Below are positions 1 through 31,093 of a stretch of DNA of 31,093 nt, in pieces. The notes beneath the pieces are model-generated. The model did no database searches. It was given only the letters and a program-made list of their open reading frames with translations, and was not told the DNA's origin. Where the stretch lies: IMG/VR virus record IMGVR_UViG_3300030389_002468, positions 1 through 31,093 of that record. The stretch is one strand, 5' to 3'. Origin of the DNA: a virus. Positions within the stretch are counted from its first letter, which is position 1, and every line of letters begins with the position of its first letter. The position numbers and the translations under genes are program-made.

Positions 1-98
1 ACTGCCCCTGCACCTGCACTAGCATTTACACTTGGAGTTTTTACTAATGATGGGTGGTTTGTTAATCTAATAAGTTGTTCTATTTCTGAGTATTCGTT
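1..98. repeat. Terminal direct repeat, left copy (circular-map overlap)
   Basis: These 98 bases are identical to 30995-31092. The next base differs (G here, A at the last base of the window). The repeat lies inside the portal coding sequence and the reading frame continues across the joined ends, so it is best read as the overlap left when a circular or circularly permuted genome was assembled. It is unlikely to be a physical long terminal repeat. Confidence 0.9.
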
Positions 99-860
99 GT
101 AAATAGCTTTTTGTAAGTCTGCAATATCAGTAAGGTCTGACTGGCCAATCCCACGTTTGTGTGATTTGGAATTGTATAAAATAACTGCTGGTATTTTGCC
201 AATCAGATTATCGGCAGTATCTATAACTTGAGGCTCTAACTGATCTTTTTGATAAAGAGTATCTATTCTATCAGGATACCATATTCTAAAATAACTTCCT
301 CCATCCTTATCAACTTCCTCTCGTATTTTTAAGTAGTCTAAATAATACTTACCATTTACCTCACGTTTAAAATTCCAATCTAAAACGTTTTCAGGTGTTA
401 CTAATGAAAGGTAAGGTCTTATTTCCTGGTTTAGTTCATCTGCCCTTGTTCTTGCCTGTATATTTGGTTTATCTAAAATCATAAAACAATGACCATAGAT
501 AGACGCATAATTTTGAGCTTGTTTTATAACACTATTAAAATTGTTTCCTTCAAGGTCAGCATCTTTTAAGAATGATTCTAAACTAGGCTCGTTGATCATT
601 GATCCAAAATTTCTAGATGGTTTTACTCTAAATAGAAACGATGAATATATTTGTATAATATTTTTACAATGATTATCGCATGGAGTGTTTCCAAGTCTTT
701 GATTGAACTCGTTATCTAATTCTAAATTGTATCTGTTTAAATATTGACCGACAGTATAATCATAACCACCATTATAACTTCTAATGTAATACTCCCATAA
801 GGTTATAGTTTCTTTATAATCTTTATGAGTATCGAGTGCCTCGTCTTTGCTGTAAGCCAT
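1..860 (-). CDS. Portal protein, N-terminal 286 residues (gene runs off the left edge)
   Basis: This is the first part of the phage portal protein, the dodecameric ring at the capsid vertex through which DNA is packaged. The frame opens at the ATG at 858-860 (MAYSKDEALD) and stays open to base 3. Across the circular join it continues without a stop into 30996-30448, giving a protein of about 468 residues, normal for a portal. The segment around residues 55-75 (CKNIIQIYSSFLFRVKPS) and the later stretch with SDLTDIADLQKAIYNEYSE resemble SPP1-gp6/DUF4055-type portals. The family is recalled from memory and not searched. The start overlaps the large-terminase stop by 38 bp, the usual terminase-portal order. 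Confidence 0.85.
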   Translation of the reverse strand, partial: MAYSKDEALDTHKDYKETITLWEYYIRSYNGGYDYTVGQYLNRYNLELDNEFNQRLGNTPCDNHCKNIIQIYSSFLFRVKPSRNFGSMINEPSLESFLKDADLEGNNFNSVIKQAQNYASIYGHCFMILDKPNIQARTRADELNQEIRPYLSLVTPENVLDWNFKREVNGKYYLDYLKIREEVDKDGGSYFRIWYPDRIDTLYQKDQLEPQVIDTADNLIGKIPAVILYNSKSHKRGIGQSDLTDIADLQKAIYNEYSEIEQLIRLTNHPSLVKTPSVNASAGAGA

Positions 861-2530: not shown

Positions 2531-2934
2531 TTTTGACCTCCGTTTGCTCTAACTTTATCTTTAACTACTTCTAGTTGCTCCATAATTTTATCTACATCTT
2601 TTTGCAACCTTTGTATATTAACTTTATTGTGCATCATAGACTCCATCTGCTCTTGTATTTTTTCAACATCCTTTATTAGATCCTCGATAAGAAGGAACTG
2701 CTCAGAGTCCGCTGGTAAACTGCCAAGCTCACCTAAAGGCCACTTAATTCTAAACTCAGTATTCATTTCTATATCCTTTGAGTTCAGTTTATTTTGAGTT
2801 TCTAAAACATTGATACGTTCAATAACCGAGAAACCGAACCAGGCTCCAACAAGACACGCACCGATGATTGTAATTAAATTTTTGGCAGGGAGCTGGATAC
2901 CTGTGTCTTCAGAAAGGCTAAGTCGCTTTGTCAT
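2527..2934 (-). CDS. Membrane-anchored coiled-coil protein
   Basis: This is a 135-residue protein with one probable transmembrane segment near residues 20-45 (AKNLITIIGACLVGAWFGFS) followed by a long charged, heptad-like region (EKIQEQMESMMHNKVNIQRL onward) that should form a coiled coil. The start is the ATG at 2932-2934, which overlaps the previous stop as ATGA. The layout of a single N-terminal anchor plus coiled coil would suit a spanin-like or inner-membrane scaffold protein. Its position among DNA-metabolism genes, far from the lysis genes, gives no support for spanin. The function is not recognised. Confidence 0.65.
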   Translation of the reverse strand: MTKRLSLSEDTGIQLPAKNLITIIGACLVGAWFGFSVIERINVLETQNKLNSKDIEMNTEFRIKWPLGELGSLPADSEQFLLIEDLIKDVEKIQEQMESMMHNKVNIQRLQKDVDKIMEQLEVVKDKVRANGGQK

Positions 2935-3212
2935 AACTTGAAACCTTTTTGCCAAGTTAAATTTGACCAGTAAACAGGTTGTAACGTGAGCTGTTTACCT
3001 GATCTTTTTGCTTTGTTCAAAATGGGTCTAAACCTCGCAAAAAAACTTCTACGTCTAGCAGGATCGTTTCTGCCTATACTCATACCCTTCTGACCGAAGT
3101 TTACCTTTTGAACTCTGCCTGTTCTTTTATTCCTTACAAATACTTTAAATTTTTTTACATCGCCACGTTGGACTTTGTTTAGCTTTACTGTTCTACCTCT
3201 ATATTTAGCCAT
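2931..3212 (-). CDS. Small basic phage protein of a widespread unknown family
   Basis: This is a 93-residue, strongly basic protein. The pattern is recognisable as a family common in phages: a basic N-terminus, then VNFGQKGMSIGRNDPARRRS, F-ARF, and a C-terminal YWS-x-LTW. In many relatives as I recall them, an RARHxC segment carries a cysteine. Here it reads FFARFRPILN and the cysteine is absent. Two bases separate it from the upstream gene. DNA or capsid association is possible given the charge, but this is inference. Confidence 0.65.
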   Translation of the reverse strand: MAKYRGRTVKLNKVQRGDVKKFKVFVRNKRTGRVQKVNFGQKGMSIGRNDPARRRSFFARFRPILNKAKRSGKQLTLQPVYWSNLTWQKGFKL

Positions 3213-3628: not shown

Positions 3629-4243
3629 TCAACCCCATTGATCTGCCATAGCATTAGCAATACCTTGAAAAAATTTAGATCGTATCTTACCTCTATCTTC
3701 ACTCCATTGTTGCCAATCGTTTTTATAAATAGGCTTACCTTTTTTTTTACCTGATTTATAATATCCATATATTTTAGGCTTTACTAATTTTGTATGTTTC
3801 AGTGGCTCTAAATTTTTAAACCATAAACAGGTTCTTTTAGATTCAGTATCGCCAAAATAATAAGGTTGAATAATTTGGGATGGTTTTTTCCAATTATTAT
3901 TTAAATAACCAACTGGATTTTCAATGCAAACCTTTGATATGTTATTATAGTAAAATTTTTTTACAAACTCCATAGCTTCAATTCTTAGTCTTTTTCTGAG
4001 CCTTGCCTTATCACCATATTTTTTTTCATTAAACCAAGCTATCCCTGCATTTGATAAATAAGTGCAAGGAGGATGAGCAATCATAAGATCCCAACCTTTA
4101 TCTAAATGTTTTAATACATCACCTTGAATATGATTACCTGGACTTTCAGTAGGTAGTATATCACAACTCCAAGCATCATGGCCTTTAGCAGCAAAAGCAT
4201 TTCTAACAATTCCTGAAAATTCACACGCAACCAAAACTTTCAT
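3629..4243 (-). CDS. Short DNA cytosine-C5-type methyltransferase
   Basis: This 204-residue protein has C5-methyltransferase hallmarks in order: an AdoMet-binding motif I-like start (MKVLVACEFSGIVRNAF), motif IV PPC at residues 58-60 with the putative catalytic Cys60 (HPPCTYLSNAG), motif VI-like ENP (109-110 region) and a KRTCLW segment near 136-141. Full C5 enzymes have about 300 or more residues with a target-recognition domain. That domain appears to be missing, so specificity may be loose or supplied in another way. Start choice: the ATG at 4241-4243 overlaps the upstream stop as ATGA. No cognate restriction enzyme is seen, so the likely role is protecting phage DNA from host restriction. 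Confidence 0.8.
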   Translation of the reverse strand: MKVLVACEFSGIVRNAFAAKGHDAWSCDILPTESPGNHIQGDVLKHLDKGWDLMIAHPPCTYLSNAGIAWFNEKKYGDKARLRKRLRIEAMEFVKKFYYNNISKVCIENPVGYLNNNWKKPSQIIQPYYFGDTESKRTCLWFKNLEPLKHTKLVKPKIYGYYKSGKKKGKPIYKNDWQQWSEDRGKIRSKFFQGIANAMADQWG

Positions 4244-4389
4244 CTTCCTTGACCCCTGTACTTTTTCCAAGTTCTACGTTTATGCTTATTCATCGTGCTA
4301 GTGTTTGGCCTTCTGCCTATACTAGTGCCTTTGTAAGTTTTTTCATAAACAACAGTTTGACCATAGACATTACCTTTTTTTTTAGCCAT
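4240..4389 (-). CDS. Small basic protein (49 aa), GRRPNTSTMNKHK-type
   Basis: This is a 49-residue, very basic protein encoded between the small-terminase-like gene and the cytosine methyltransferase. It overlaps the first by 8 bp and the second by 4 bp (ATGA). The sequence TSIGRRPNTSTMNKHKRRTW with C-terminal KKYRGQGR matches a pattern I recall from marine phage microproteins. The function is unknown; nucleic-acid binding is plausible from its charge. It is too short for default ORF cut-offs, but fused start and stop codons on both sides make it credible. Confidence 0.65.
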   Translation of the reverse strand: MAKKKGNVYGQTVVYEKTYKGTSIGRRPNTSTMNKHKRRTWKKYRGQGR

Positions 4390-4741: not shown

Positions 4742-5916
4742 ATTTTTGTCGCTTTTGCGTTTGCCCATTGTTCCCATCTTTTTACTATAACATCACAATA
4801 TTTAGGGTCTAGTTCTATTCCATAACATATACGTTGTAGTTTTTCACAGGCTATCAAAGTACTGCCTGATCCTAAAAATGAGTCTAATACTATATCCTCC
4901 TGCTTTGTTGAGTTATTTATCAGATAGGACAATAAATTAACAGGTTTCATAGTAGGATGAAGTTTAGATGAGGTTGGCCTGTCAAAGTTTAAAATAGTGG
5001 TTTGCTTACGATCTGAATACCAGCTATGAGACGCACCCTCTTTCCAACCATATAAGCAAGGTTCATGCTGCCACTGATAGTCTTGTCTGCCCATAACCAT
5101 ACTATTTTTAGACCATATAAGAGTTTGCCTTAATTTTAGATTTGAGTCGTTTACAGCTAGTCTAAATAGTAATCCTTCACTATCCGAGTGCCATATGTAA
5201 AAAGATCCGCCTAATTTCAAATAGTTTGTAGAGTTTGTAAATGCTTGTTTTAAAAATTCTTGGAATTGCTCATCGCTTTGTTTGTCGTTTTGTATTTTAA
5301 GTGCATCCTTAGTTTTTCCAACATAATCTACGTTATAAGGAGGATCTGTTAAATATAGGTCTACCTTTTTATCACTTAATAGTTTTTCATAAGTTTCAGC
5401 AGACGTACTATCACCGCATATAATTCTATGTTTACCAAGTTGCCAAATATCGCCAGGCTTTGTAATAGGCTCTTCAGGAGTTTCAGGAACTTCATCGTCA
5501 TCAGCATTACCTTGTTTCTCAGCAAAAAGTATTTGATCAACTTCAGGTTTATCCATACCTGTAAGCTCAAGATTAAAGTCTTTCATTTCTAGCTCTTTTA
5601 TTTCTAAAGCTAATAACTCGTCATCCCACTCAGCTTCTTCATTAGTCCTATTATCAGCTATACGATATGCGTTTACTTGTTCAGGTGTTAAATTATCTAT
5701 TATTGTTACAGGAATAGTTTTATATCCTAATTTACGTGAGGCCTGGTATCTAGTATGACCTACAACTATTGTACTATTTTTATCAATAACTATCGGCTGC
5801 CTAAAACCAAATTCTTTAAGTGACTGAGCTACTTTCTCAATAGCTTTAGGAGTAAGTTTTCTTGGATTGTTTGAATATGGCTTTACAAGATTAATATCTA
5901 TTTGCTGTATTCTCAT
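4738..5916 (-). CDS. ParB-domain / DNA N6-adenine or N4-cytosine methyltransferase fusion
   Basis: This 392-residue protein has two domains. Residues 1-90 are a ParB/Srx-like domain with the GHTRYQASRKLG signature (53-64). Residues from about 160 are an amino-methyltransferase with the catalytic DPPYN at 191-195 (LYLTDPPYNVDY). The AdoMet motif DSFLGSGSTLIACE lies near the C-terminus, an order typical of beta-class enzymes. An acidic linker (NADDDEVPETPEEP) joins the two domains. This architecture is common in phages and is thought to modify phage DNA against host restriction. The start overlaps the upstream stop as ATGA (5913-5916). The target sequence cannot be told. Confidence 0.93.
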   Translation of the reverse strand: MRIQQIDINLVKPYSNNPRKLTPKAIEKVAQSLKEFGFRQPIVIDKNSTIVVGHTRYQASRKLGYKTIPVTIIDNLTPEQVNAYRIADNRTNEEAEWDDELLALEIKELEMKDFNLELTGMDKPEVDQILFAEKQGNADDDEVPETPEEPITKPGDIWQLGKHRIICGDSTSAETYEKLLSDKKVDLYLTDPPYNVDYVGKTKDALKIQNDKQSDEQFQEFLKQAFTNSTNYLKLGGSFYIWHSDSEGLLFRLAVNDSNLKLRQTLIWSKNSMVMGRQDYQWQHEPCLYGWKEGASHSWYSDRKQTTILNFDRPTSSKLHPTMKPVNLLSYLINNSTKQEDIVLDSFLGSGSTLIACEKLQRICYGIELDPKYCDVIVKRWEQWANAKATKI

Positions 5917-12534: not shown

Positions 12535-12732
12535 TTAGTTGAGGACTGTGTAGAGTAGATGCGTAACAGCAATTAAACAAATAGACCACATAACTTTTTC
12601 CATACGAGAAACTCTTTGATCTAAGTGTGCAAGATGGTTTCCACGAATCGTCTGTATTTCGTGTTTAAGAAGTGCTATCTCACCTTCTATACGGATCAGT
12701 TGCTCTTTGTTTTTTTGACTTGCTGTTGCCAT
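12535..12732 (-). CDS. XhlA-like membrane protein (holin accessory)
   Basis: This 65-residue protein has a helical, heptad-patterned N-terminal half (LIRIEGEIALLKHEIQTIRG then NHLAHLDQRVSRMEK) and a C-terminal hydrophobic segment (VMWSICLIAVTHLLYTVLN). It matches the haemolysin XhlA/holin-accessory design in which the C-terminal anchor sits in the inner membrane. It neighbours the holin and endolysin genes. A spanin-like role is less likely because the anchor is C-terminal. Confidence 0.7.
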   Translation of the reverse strand: MATASQKNKEQLIRIEGEIALLKHEIQTIRGNHLAHLDQRVSRMEKVMWSICLIAVTHLLYTVLN

Positions 12733-12734
12733 AT

Positions 12735-12983
12735 TTACCTTTTACGTTTTTTTCTGCGTAGGTCAAGATCATGCTTTCTAGATCCTCTCAAAAAAGAATT
12801 AACCCTTCCCATACTCCATGCAGCCATAGATACTCTTCTTGATCCAGCACCTAAAAAAGCACCTTGACCACGTCTATAAACTTTTACAAGAGTTGAGTAT
12901 GAAACACCTTTTTTTGCTTTTGCTTTACGTCTCAAAGCAGTTCTTACAGCAGATGATAAAGGTCTTCTAAATCTACTAGCCAT
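12735..12983 (-). CDS. Small basic protein with VYRRGQGAF...RVNSFLRG pattern
   Basis: This 82-residue, highly basic protein contains SYSTLVKVYRRGQGAFLGAG then WSMGRVNSFLRG and a basic tail. I recall this pattern (possibly DUF5824) from many phages and giant viruses; its function is unknown. It belongs to the run of basic genes between the M15 peptidase and the XhlA-like gene, and its ATG overlaps the upstream stop as TAATG. Nucleic-acid or virion association is inferred from charge only. Confidence 0.65.
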   Translation of the reverse strand: MASRFRRPLSSAVRTALRRKAKAKKGVSYSTLVKVYRRGQGAFLGAGSRRVSMAAWSMGRVNSFLRGSRKHDLDLRRKKRKR

Positions 12984-13171
12984 TATGCCCTCGTTCTGCT
13001 TCTTAGTAAGGATCTAGGTATGAAGCCACCTGATTTGTAAATAGATGCAACTTTCTTAATTAGTCTAGCTCTTCTTGTTCGTTTTGAGCCTTTTAGTCCT
13101 GACAAGTATTTCTTAGGAATACCTGTCTTTTTATCTTTTGGAACGTTTCTTCTTTTTCTTTTTTTTGACAT
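12983..13171 (-). CDS. Small basic protein (62 aa), TGIPKKYLSGLKGSKR-type
   Basis: This is a lysine/arginine-rich protein with a recognisable block TGIPKKYLSGLKGSKRTRRA followed by RLIKKVASIYKSGGFIP, similar to small proteins (DUF5872-like, from memory) found in marine phages. It overlaps the 37-residue gene by 41 bp and joins the next gene through TAATG. The function is unknown. Confidence 0.65.
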   Translation of the reverse strand: MSKKRKRRNVPKDKKTGIPKKYLSGLKGSKRTRRARLIKKVASIYKSGGFIPRSLLRSRTRA

Positions 13172-13244
13172 TTCTTCTTCTCTTTCGCAACGACCTTTTG
13201 TTTATCATTTCAGCTAATGTAGAGGAAGTTGTAAATCCGTTCAT
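13131..13244 (-). CDS. Lysine/arginine-rich microprotein (37 aa)
   Basis: This short frame from the ATG at 13242-13244 (ATGA overlap with the upstream stop) to the TAA at 13131-13133 has an uncharged start (MNGFTTSSTLAEMIN). A tail of almost pure Lys/Arg follows (KRSLRKRRRNVKKKKKKK). The fused start codon supports translation. It overlaps the following 62-residue gene by 41 bp in a different frame. The tail resembles a nucleic-acid-binding or condensing peptide. Confidence 0.55.
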   Translation of the reverse strand: MNGFTTSSTLAEMINKRSLRKRRRNVKKKKKKKRSKR

Positions 13245-13438
13245 CTGCCACTTCTTCTCATTGCGATCCTGTGAGCTTGACCGAATGTCCGCTTTCTTTT
13301 TCCACCAGCACCACTCATCAATCTAGCCATAGTTCGCATATGCTTTAGTGTGTGATGTTTTGCGTGACCTCTCATAGTCTTTTGCTGTCTAGGAGTTAGG
13401 CCTTTTATAATATTTTTAATTGAGGCTACTTTAACCAT
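13241..13438 (-). CDS. Small basic protein (65 aa), LTPRQQKTMRGHAKHHT-type
   Basis: This His/Lys/Arg-rich protein reads SIKNIIKGLTPRQQKTMRGH then AKHHTLKHMRTMARLMSGAG and TFGQAHRIAMRRSGR. I recall the LTPRQ...HSKHHT...M..LM pattern from marine phage microproteins of unknown function. Both ends are fused to neighbours (TAATG upstream, ATGA downstream). The several histidines could bind metal. Confidence 0.62.
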   Translation of the reverse strand: MVKVASIKNIIKGLTPRQQKTMRGHAKHHTLKHMRTMARLMSGAGGKRKRTFGQAHRIAMRRSGR

Positions 13439-13512
13439 TATCTTTTCTTTTTACCTTTTTTCTTTTTTTTCTTTTTTTTTGGTTTCATACCACCTCCGTA
13501 ATGATAGGGCAT
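13438..13512 (-). CDS. Poly-lysine microprotein (24 aa)
   Basis: This frame runs from the ATG at 13510-13512 and starts MPYHYGGGMKP, followed by eight lysines in a row, Gly and a KKKR end. TAATG fusions link it to both neighbours. The codons for GGG contain GGAGGTGG, which is a strong Shine-Dalgarno for the internal ATG at 13486-13488. A 16-residue version is therefore also likely to be made. Confidence 0.55.
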   Translation of the reverse strand: MPYHYGGGMKPKKKKKKKKGKKKR

Positions 13513-13604
13513 TATTTCCTCGCTTTCTTTTTTTTCTTTTGTTTTTTTAGAATAGCTTTTTGTAAAGCCATTGGTAATTTTTTTTGTTTTTTAGTAAGTG
13601 CCAT
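13512..13604 (-). CDS. Lysine-rich microprotein (30 aa)
   Basis: This frame starts MALTKKQKKLPMALQKAILK and ends in a lysine-rich tail with ARK. Its ATG overlaps the M15 peptidase stop (TAATG at 13602-13606) and its stop overlaps the next start. It is the first of a run of basic microproteins after the endolysin. The function is unknown. Confidence 0.55.
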   Translation of the reverse strand: MALTKKQKKLPMALQKAILKKQKKKKKARK

Positions 13605-14086
13605 TATTCTACTACCTTTCCACCTGACCATTTCATTTCAGGTAATCCGTTTGTATATTTTTTTCCGTCAAAGGTCAAAACTTGTTTTCTATTAGAACCC
13701 TCAACAAAGCTACAATGAACCCAACCCTTTTGATCATCATCAGGACAATAATATTCTAATATAAGTTGATCGAAGTCACAATTAGCTTCTATAAAATATG
13801 CCACCTGTATATTTGCAACACCAATCACCTCAAAATCGACTGCCTCCCCTTTGGTGTGTTGACTAGTAGATTTTGATCCTATTGCCTCGCAAAGTTCAGG
13901 GCTTCTATATCCTGAAGTGACTATTACAGGCTTATCGTATTTGACTCTAACCTTTTCTAAAACTCCATAACAAACATCAGTTAAATTTTTTATTTCACCT
14001 GATCCTGCTTTATTTTTAATACCTAATCTTTGAGCTGTTTGAGACTTTTCAAATTCTTCTAATTTAAAATGTTTTGATAGTTGCAT
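13604..14086 (-). CDS. Endolysin, peptidase M15 (D-Ala-D-Ala carboxypeptidase type)
   Basis: This 160-residue zinc peptidase should cut peptidoglycan cross-links at lysis. The M15_3 motifs are complete: VTSGYRSPELCEAIG, then SQHTKGEAVDFE with zinc ligands His77 and Asp84, and WVHCSF with His124. No signal peptide is visible, so release should depend on the holin. AGGAGA precedes the ATG. It lies directly after the fibre genes and before the basic microprotein run. Confidence 0.92.
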   Translation of the reverse strand: MQLSKHFKLEEFEKSQTAQRLGIKNKAGSGEIKNLTDVCYGVLEKVRVKYDKPVIVTSGYRSPELCEAIGSKSTSQHTKGEAVDFEVIGVANIQVAYFIEANCDFDQLILEYYCPDDDQKGWVHCSFVEGSNRKQVLTFDGKKYTNGLPEMKWSGGKVVE

Positions 14087-27547: not shown

Positions 27548-27624
27548 TACTTTGCACCTTTAAATAGCCATTCAACATATTTATTCCATACTTTTTTAAC
27601 TAGCTTTTTTAGTTTTTTTAGCAT
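27547..27624 (-). CDS. Amphipathic cationic microprotein (25 aa)
   Basis: This short frame runs from the ATG at 27622-27624 to a TAA that overlaps the connector start (TAATG). It is read +1 relative to the preceding 71-residue gene and overlaps it by 29 bp. The product starts MLKKLKKLVKKVWNKYVEWL and ends FKGAK. Hydrophobic residues repeat every three to four positions between lysines, so it should form a cationic amphipathic helix. The tight fusion to the next gene and an upstream AAGAGA support translation. The function is unknown. Confidence 0.5.
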   Translation of the reverse strand: MLKKLKKLVKKVWNKYVEWLFKGAK

Positions 27625-27811
27625 TTTTTTTTCTCTTCGGTTTTTGTTTCACTACTTTATCAGCTATGACCTTTGTTGTCGCCTTTTTAATTTGTTTTTT
27701 TGCTTCATCAACTGGAGCAAAACCATTTCTTTCATAAAACCCAATATTAGCTTCATAATACTTTTTTGGTTTTACAATAATTTTTTTACCATTTGTTAAT
27801 TTAATATCCAT
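27596..27811 (-). CDS. Small basic-tailed protein downstream of the capsid gene
   Basis: This 71-residue protein has a folded-looking first half (MDIKLTNGKKIIVKPKKYYE then ANIGFYERNGFAPVDEAKKQ) and a lysine/arginine-rich tail (KQKPKRKKNAKKTKK). A strong Shine-Dalgarno (CGGAGGA) precedes it. It is the first gene after the terminator-like hairpin behind the capsid gene. It may be a minor virion or connector component; unknown. Confidence 0.6.
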   Translation of the reverse strand: MDIKLTNGKKIIVKPKKYYEANIGFYERNGFAPVDEAKKQIKKATTKVIADKVVKQKPKRKKNAKKTKKAS

Positions 27812-29455: not shown

Positions 29456-30448
29456 CTATATTATTAATTGTCCGTCTTCGTTATACCAATCAGGGCTAAC
29501 GTAAGACCACTGATGCCTACAATTATATCCGCCTCTAACTACTAATGGATCGCCTGGTTTTTTACCATCCCACGATTGTTGAGACCATAGTCGTCTAACT
29601 TCAGCAACAGTGAAAACATTACTGCTTCGTTTTTTATATACACCACCTAAGATGTTTCTGCAAATACGTCTTGTTGTAGGTATGACATCGCCAAAGTATT
29701 TAATATGAGTTAGACCTGCCTCACCTGCTTTAAAAGCATTAACCTGTGCATCAAACTCACGCAAACCATCATTTAATAGCTGGGATGCGTATTTTCTCAT
29801 ATTATCACCAGCTCTATCTCTACCAAATTTAGACTGCAAGGTTTGTACTGCTTTATCAACCTGTACTTGCATAGACTTTTTGTTTTTATTTTTTTTTACA
29901 AATTCAGCTAATCGTTGTGCTTCTGCATCATTTGATTTACTATATATGCCGTTTATTGTTTGACGTAATTCCTTCTCTAACTCAACAAACTCTCTACCAA
30001 CTAAGGTGTTTTGATAAACTTTATCTGCTAATCGTTTTGTAAATGTATTTGATACATCTTTAAATTGAGTGAAGGTTTGTAATTTTAAATTTTGTATTAA
30101 GGCTAGATCCCCTTTTGTTAGTTCTTGGAAAGCTACAGGTATATTACCAATTCCTTTAAAAGCCCTTTCTATTCTTTTGGCCTGTCTATTAAAACCTTTT
30201 TTAGTAAGAGTATCTGCCCAAGCTAAAAACTGAGATTGTAATACTGATCTTATTTTTGGTCTGATTGCTATTGCTGCCTGCAGCTCTATTAATTTACCTG
30301 CTTGAGTTGGAAGTTCCTTTCCAGCAAGTCTAACAACATCATCTTCTATTTTATCTAGAGTCCTTTGTAATGTTTGGTAGTATTCTTGTTCTGCTCGGTC
30401 TAGGTTTTTAATCCTGTAAATAGTAAACTGTCTGACTTTGTCTGCCAT
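29456..30448 (-). CDS. Phage head morphogenesis protein (Mu F / SPP1 gp7-like)
   Basis: This 330-residue minor head protein has a helical first two thirds. The family C-terminal module contains ITHIKYFGD-like THIKYFGDVIPTTRRICRNI, LGGVYKKR, RLWSQQSWDGKKPGDPLVVR and GGYNCRHQWSYV. Cysteines and histidine in the last segments are typical of the family. It overlaps the portal stop as TAATG and is probably packaged inside the head or at the portal vertex. Confidence 0.85.
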   Translation of the reverse strand: MADKVRQFTIYRIKNLDRAEQEYYQTLQRTLDKIEDDVVRLAGKELPTQAGKLIELQAAIAIRPKIRSVLQSQFLAWADTLTKKGFNRQAKRIERAFKGIGNIPVAFQELTKGDLALIQNLKLQTFTQFKDVSNTFTKRLADKVYQNTLVGREFVELEKELRQTINGIYSKSNDAEAQRLAEFVKKNKNKKSMQVQVDKAVQTLQSKFGRDRAGDNMRKYASQLLNDGLREFDAQVNAFKAGEAGLTHIKYFGDVIPTTRRICRNILGGVYKKRSSNVFTVAEVRRLWSQQSWDGKKPGDPLVVRGGYNCRHQWSYVSPDWYNEDGQLII

Positions 30449-31093
30449 TATACTTGCTCATCTTCAACATCTTCTTCTTGTACTTCGTCTTGAGTAAACT
30501 GACCTACCTCTGCTTGACCATTTATTTCTTCAAAGGCCTGGTTAAGAGTATCGTCATCATCAATAACTGTTCTTACTATTTCTTTATCTACCTCTTTGTT
30601 AAACGTTGGTGATTGTAAGTTCATAGCTTTTGCCATTGAGAAAAATTGAATGTCAGTGGCGTAGTCACGAATATTGAACGAATCAGGGTAGCTTATCTCA
30701 CCATCAAAAGTAGTATTTTGAAATTGAGCATATAATCTAAATAGCTGCTCTTCTGCTATTTCTAAATTGTCCGCTTTTTCAGATAGTCTAGCATTTAATA
30801 ATTCAAACTCTGTTTGCAGAGCTATACCTGATGAGACTTGTTGTTTGGTAGTTCTAATAGCCCCTGTATGAGCAATTCTATTTATGGCCTCGACCTTGTG
30901 CCTAATTGAATCCATAATAGATTGTAAGTTAGCTCCTGAAGGTTGTAATAAATATGGTTTTAAATTTGAGTCTATTTCTTCAGGCATTTCTATAACTGCC
31001 CCTGCACCTGCACTAGCATTTACACTTGGAGTTTTTACTAATGATGGGTGGTTTGTTAATCTAATAAGTTGTTCTATTTCTGAGTATTCGTTA
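30448..31093 (-). CDS. Portal protein, C-terminal part (gene continues across the circular join)
   Basis: This is the C-terminal 182 residues of the portal plus the 32 codons of the terminal repeat region. The internal ATG at 30985-30987 is not the start: the frame is open to the right edge of the window and matches the frame that enters at base 3 on the left. The segment contains LKPYLLQPSGANLQSIMDSI, HKVEAINRIAHTGAIRTTKQ and SGIALQTEFELLNARLS, like portal helices. It ends in an acidic tail (DEVQEEDVEDEQV). Do not annotate it as a separate 179-residue gene. Confidence 0.9.
   Translation of the reverse strand, partial: NEYSEIEQLIRLTNHPSLVKTPSVNASAGAGAVIEMPEEIDSNLKPYLLQPSGANLQSIMDSIRHKVEAINRIAHTGAIRTTKQQVSSGIALQTEFELLNARLSEKADNLEIAEEQLFRLYAQFQNTTFDGEISYPDSFNIRDYATDIQFFSMAKAMNLQSPTFNKEVDKEIVRTVIDDDDTLNQAFEEINGQAEVGQFTQDEVQEEDVEDEQV
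30995..31092. repeat. Terminal direct repeat, right copy (circular-map overlap)
   Basis: This is identical to bases 1-98. The following and last base (31093, A) differs from base 99 (G). In the portal frame both give tyrosine (TAT versus TAC), so the difference is silent. Confidence 0.9.

Follow-up and report, generated by a model that had tools for sequence, protein, structure and literature searches.

Disruptins, the cationic lysis peptides of some phages, disrupt the outer membrane at lysis. A T4-type internal protein carries an N-terminal capsid-targeting sequence, which is cut by the prohead protease. T4 packages about 1000 copies of its internal proteins, whose lysines are in contact with the phosphates of the DNA (PMC3012670; PMC7697877). 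Tlr6F is widespread in polinton-like viruses, virophages and Megavirales and is found in some phages, and it has no assigned function (PMC4642659; PMC12220804). The window analysed here, the whole of a 31,093-base virus record from a small marine virus that is probably a phage of SAR11, encodes a cassette of six small basic proteins whose families are catalogued already but uncharacterised. Portal matches are found at both ends of the window (1-823, with P_portal from 3, and 30448-30987, the portal C-terminal part), which suggests that the record is a nearly complete genome, circularly permuted and opened within the portal gene.

Six short genes under purifying selection

The six open reading frames (ORFs) of 30, 24, 65, 37, 62 and 82 residues that the sequence-only reading had reported at 12735-13604 are present on the minus strand, overlap one another and all start with ATG. 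Relatives were taken from two IMG/VR scans (150 loci), and the families were then gathered by iterated profile searches. The cassette, its flanks and a further gene discussed below are listed here, with the number of homologous loci and the median pairwise dN/dS given for each of the six.

13604..14086, minus strand: upstream flank, M15-peptidase endolysin (PF08291, E 1e-19; phrog_894 endolysin)
13512..13604, minus strand: A30, a 30-residue Lys-rich peptide in which the core LTKKQKKLP.ALQ.AI.KK is kept; 92 loci, dN/dS 0.123
13438..13512, minus strand: B24, a 24-residue peptide with an MPYHYG head and a poly-lysine tail; 90 loci, dN/dS 0.278
13241..13438, minus strand: C65, a 65-residue His/Arg-rich protein, phrog_31838; 115 loci, dN/dS 0.116
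13131..13244, minus strand: D37, a 37-residue peptide with a Lys/Arg tail; 92 loci, dN/dS 0.253
12983..13171, minus strand: E62, a 62-residue protein, phrog_38321, likely the N-terminal half of DUF5824; 135 loci, dN/dS 0.297
12735..12983, minus strand: F82, an 82-residue protein, phrog_28338, matching the C-terminal part of DUF5824; 138 loci, dN/dS 0.214
12535..12732, minus strand: downstream flank, an ORF for a 65-residue coiled coil with a C-terminal transmembrane (TM) segment, without firm family match
2931..3212, minus strand: a 93-residue basic protein, Tlr6F/DUF5754-like (phrog_7595, E 4e-12), upstream of the terminase

The earlier description of the products as highly basic and rich in lysine and arginine is borne out: the pI of each of the six proteins is 10.8-12 and the net charge is +13 to +24, and the K+R fraction of the cassette is 0.28-0.54 versus a median of 0.15 in the 52 other genes. 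The gene fusions described in the same reading are likewise found, as TAATG-type 1-nt overlaps at endolysin/A30, A30/B24, B24/C65 and E62/F82 and as an ATGA 4-nt overlap at C65/D37; in addition, the reading frames of D37 and E62 share 41 nt. Among the relatives, the same junctions recur at E62/F82 (1-nt overlap in 122 of 135 pairs), B24/C65 (1-nt, 83 of 85), C65/D37 (4-nt, 84 of 89) and D37/E62 (41-nt, 76 of 77). As to the flanks, the upstream gene is indeed an endolysin, whereas the call of the downstream gene as a holin accessory is only plausible (phrog_5225, E 0.007).

All six ORFs are real genes under frame-specific purifying selection. The sequence-only reading would have been refuted by conservation that went no further than A-richness or by a dN/dS near 1; the medians are in fact 0.12-0.30, and those of the neighbouring endolysin and phosphodiesterase genes are 0.188 and 0.283, respectively. 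When the codon alignments were shifted by 1 or 2 bases, pN/pS was about 0.9-2.7 and 3-12 stops appeared per 100 codons, so A-richness does not explain the conservation. The long A-rich runs of lysine codons in B24 make ribosome slippage or assembly errors possible, and its frame is kept nevertheless.

The nearest isolates with the cassette are the pelagiphages HTVC026P, HTVC111P and HTVC202P. Conserved genes of 20-40 codons are absent from the annotation of these phages: the A30 and B24 region of HTVC026P (5549-5813) has no annotated gene, and short cassette ORFs are missing from the public annotation of HTVC111P (5560-5637) and HTVC202P (5590-5658). Searches with tblastn gave no match to A30 in phage records, and the HTVC111P and HTVC202P versions of C65 and E62 matched only their source phages.

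E62-F82 and the DUF5824 family

The sequence-only reading missed that F82 matches a catalogued family, DUF5824, of which E62 probably supplies the remainder, and that a Tlr6F-like sister gene lies elsewhere in the window. F82 alone matches positions 64-108 of the DUF5824 profile (PF19141) with 24.9 bits (E 2.5e-5; gathering score, 25). Once E62 and F82 are joined, the score is 32.2 bits and the match is continuous over positions 1-108 of 127, and when shuffled E62 was placed before F82 as a control, the scores were 19.5-23.4 bits, the real E62 being ahead of all four shuffles by 9-13 bits. In HTVC111P, the joined E and F proteins score 40.4 bits versus 32.6-36.8 for four shuffles; its E protein is ahead of these shuffles by 4-8 bits and only 2.8 bits over F alone, which already scores 37.6 bits. 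For the HTVC202P orthologue, F alone scores 36.6 bits.

E62 adjoins F82 immediately upstream in nearly all loci, and the two genes are nearly inseparable, with overlapping frames. Because E62 precedes F82 and extends the match from 64-108 to 1-108, the pair looks like a split DUF5824; judged from these profile matches, E62-F82 is probably the two-gene form of the family. In the T4-like phage C48C1, profile positions 1-55 are found in one gene and 63-125 in the next, and in HTVC008M and Melnitz the E-like and F-like stretches lie within one protein. Profile comparison of E62 with the E-region of the T4-like proteins gave a suggestive E value of 0.003, which was nearly equalled by 1 of 40 column shuffles. 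Two contigs showed DUF5824 matches that continue through a stop into the sequence upstream of F82; these were discarded, and in the contig examined (G005) the upstream frame is not the E62 frame.

The AF2 model of F82 is a three-helix bundle (mean pLDDT 82.7) and that of C65 is a small helical bundle (pLDDT 87.5). Fold searches with both models gave no significant PDB match, and the profiles of F82, E62 and C65 returned nothing relevant among the sequences of solved structures. Sigma-70 region 2 domains recurred as weak look-alikes of F82, with a Z of 6.0 and an rmsd of 3.2 across 66 residues at best and Foldseek E values no better than 2; this is too low to be trusted, since the match is within the chance range for helical bundles. 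The DUF5824 proteins returned by a fold search of viral predictions include one named XkdF and one named ChaB.

In one bacterial class, DUF5824 was found in only 2 of 385 genomes, with a phage contig as one of the two, and this speaks against a host chromosomal family. DUF5824 is nearly absent from the sampled bacterial genomes and is a virus-specific family.

Gene neighbourhoods and head-protein fusions

Gene context was compared in ten long contigs, in which TerL, portal, MuF, scaffold and MCP are homologous throughout. In type 1 (the window, G006, G008, G009 and G010), the cassette lies between the tail genes and the phosphodiesterase gene and has six genes (five in G010), which follow the endolysin where one is recognised; the Tlr6F-like gene of these phages is located upstream of the terminase gene. 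In type 2 (G001-G005 and G007), E62, F82 and the Tlr6F-like gene are found between portal and MuF, sometimes with C65 and a 43-46-aa protein, in the order TerL-portal-E62-F82-(C65)-(43-46 aa)-Tlr6F-MuF-scaffold-MCP; the terminase, portal, scaffold and capsid of G001 are backed by PHROG matches. In these phages A30 and D37, together with B24 or C65 where present, stay after the lysis genes, and neither A30 nor D37 was found in any head operon. C65 lies within the head operon of several relatives. The cyanophage P-HS2, a different siphovirus, has a B24-E62-F82-C65-Tlr6F block between MuF and scaffold (portal-MuF-...-B24-E62-F82-C65-Tlr6F-scaffold-MCP). Among 97 distinct F82 neighbourhoods, which sample the closest relatives and not a random set, 54 lie on the lysis side and 40 in head/packaging regions, with 3 unresolved.

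Just after the major capsid gene, the window encodes a 71-aa protein (27596-27811, minus strand) with a lysine-rich C-terminal tail, a K+R fraction of 0.32 and a net charge of +17. In G006, G008, G009 and G010, a homologue of it comes after the capsid gene, whereas none was found in type 2.

The protein encoded at 2931-3212 matches PF19058 with 16.5 bits (E 0.0089), below the gathering score (27.4), and is therefore called Tlr6F-like only. Its family, phrog_7595, has a further match at the C-terminal end of the Melnitz protein that carries the E-like and F-like stretches, and in relatives the Tlr6F-like gene is found in the head operon directly after E62-F82. Near this gene in the window, the gene at 3629-4270 (minus strand) has a homologue at L253:13254-13841, recognised by the shared start MKVL.ACE.SGIVR.AF; this homologue sits between the Tlr6F-like gene and MuF of G005.

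DUF5824 is fused to head proteins in other phages, and the E62-F82-Tlr6F trio occupies the portal-MuF slot of the sister phages. In a phage contig within a Rhodobiaceae MAG (L264), a single 744-aa protein contains the portal (residues 111-417) and DUF5824 (residues 537-617) and is followed by MuF and an S78 protease, which is the same slot as in type 2. In Roseobacter phage CRP-831, DUF5824, an S78 prohead protease and an HK97 capsid protein form one 974-aa protein, and in CRP-823 an ORF of 238 aa, separate but overlapping, encodes the DUF5824 part. In Salinibacter phages, the major head protein is immediately preceded by a DUF5824 ORF. T4-like phages speak against a pure head role: their E-like and F-like domains are part of a nucleotidyltransferase-like protein encoded outside the annotated head cluster. 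These fusion proteins might carry a capsid-targeting N-terminus.

A second small domain, phrog_2859, lies beside DUF5824 in the CRP-831 polyprotein (L156, aa 8-114) and in the L264 portal protein (aa 643-736); as it accompanies DUF5824 in both fusions, it seems that accessory domains move as a group from one head protein to another. In Salinibacter phage B2_17, some 1.1 kb separate the DUF5824 protein from a Cas12f1-like TNB / OrfB transposase gene upstream of it (L161:435-1937).

Possible roles and comparison with known systems

The reading that we favour, with a probability of about 0.48, makes E62, F82, the Tlr6F-like protein and, probably, C65 internal proteins that bind DNA and are associated with the head. 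We infer that they would join head assembly and enter the prohead, and hence the virion, near the portal or scaffold, that they would bind packaged DNA within the head or at its mouth, and that their basic charge would neutralise the charge of the viral DNA. Because the family elsewhere lies inside or is fused to head genes, E62 and F82 would most likely be packed with or around the viral DNA. The head-operon context, the head-protein fusions, the fold match to an XkdF-named protein, the near-absence from bacteria, the net charge of +13 to +24 and the precedent of the T4 internal proteins were counted as support; counted against it were the position of the window cassette, which adjoins lysis genes and not head genes, the absence of A30 and D37 from the head operons, the nucleotidyltransferase-like setting of the domains in T4-like phages, the weak sigma-70 region 2 look-alikes of F82 and the consideration that small genes might simply be tolerated between portal and MuF. 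In E62 and F82, inspected with no consensus applied, no N-terminal capsid-targeting sequence is evident. Condensation of DNA in the head, which had been offered as a possible role for the whole set, is favoured by context and fusions for E62 and F82 only and, in fewer phages, for C65 and B24. Among the open-licence literature, we found no virion proteomics papers on pelagiphages with the cassette. A wider proposal, which we regard as doubtful, is that DUF5824 and Tlr6F may form one capsid-interior DNA-binding module common to tailed phages and eukaryotic DNA viruses and occurring as stand-alone genes, split into a pair or built as domains into portal, protease/capsid or other phage proteins.

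It is unlikely that the cassette, or at least A30-B24-C65-D37, serves lysis through cationic amphipathic peptides that disturb the outer membrane with the endolysin, acting like disruptins and replacing spanins. These four genes follow the endolysin in the phage type of the window, in type 2 they follow lysozyme-holin-TM genes though E62-F82 has moved to the head operon, and no spanin pair was recognised in the ORF list of the window. However, head operons contain E62-F82 and the Tlr6F-like gene, joined in several phages by C65 and B24, DUF5824 is fused to head proteins, and A30, which is about half lysine and arginine, has a short amphipathic core only, with no evident signal peptide or lipobox. 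The role of A30, B24 and D37, which are basic peptides from this cluster too, is less certain. For A30 and D37 this uncertainty arises because both stay beside the lysis genes even when E62-F82 moves, and for these two the lysis-peptide reading is live.

The proteins might also build or fill the head without being retained in the virion, as scaffold, portal-loading or packaging cofactors that are later removed or degraded. The context and the fusions would fit this equally, and the domain is fused to the portal C-terminus and to protease/capsid precursors, which are places where parts may be cut away; nevertheless, nothing positive beyond context speaks for this explanation, and we consider it rather improbable. 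Host takeover by binding nucleoid DNA, ribosomes or RNA polymerase is the least supported role and a very improbable one: the high charge and the weak resemblance of the predicted F82 fold to sigma-70 region 2 would agree with it, but that resemblance is at chance level, head-protein fusions and head-operon placement point elsewhere, the cassette lies in a same-strand block with tail and lysis genes, and the earlier suggestion of ribosome or nucleoid binding finds no support beyond charge.

As far as our searches show, the new points are that even the very short frames are genes under selection, that DUF5824 is probably split, that head operons of phages pair it with a Tlr6F-like gene and that it is fused to head proteins; none of these was found in the open-licence papers searched. 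The pairing and the portal/capsid fusions narrow the open function to one question, namely, whether the proteins are in the head, and this question is approachable now, since the cultured HTVC026P, HTVC111P and HTVC202P hold much of the cassette.

Under the favoured reading of E62, F82, the Tlr6F-like protein and C65 as internal head proteins, T4 IPI, IPII and IPIII, which are small proteins packed in the head, may be proposed as functional analogues of the cassette proteins, although no sequence relationship is shown and the window phage is far smaller than T4. The likeness to disruptins lies in a small cationic product encoded beside an endolysin gene; it comes from position and charge alone, whereas the context of E62-F82 points to the head. 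With Tlr6F/DUF5754, the common ground is that the 93-aa protein of the window and the neighbour of E62-F82 in the sister phages both match phrog_7595, but the Pfam match is weak and the Tlr6F-like gene of the window is unlinked from the cassette. The likeness to DUF5824 (PF19141) is one of sequence and of context: F82 matches its C-terminal half, the joined E62 and F82 score above the gathering score, and the family is elsewhere found fused to portal, protease and capsid proteins, whereas here it is probably divided between two overlapping genes, each encoding a stand-alone basic protein.
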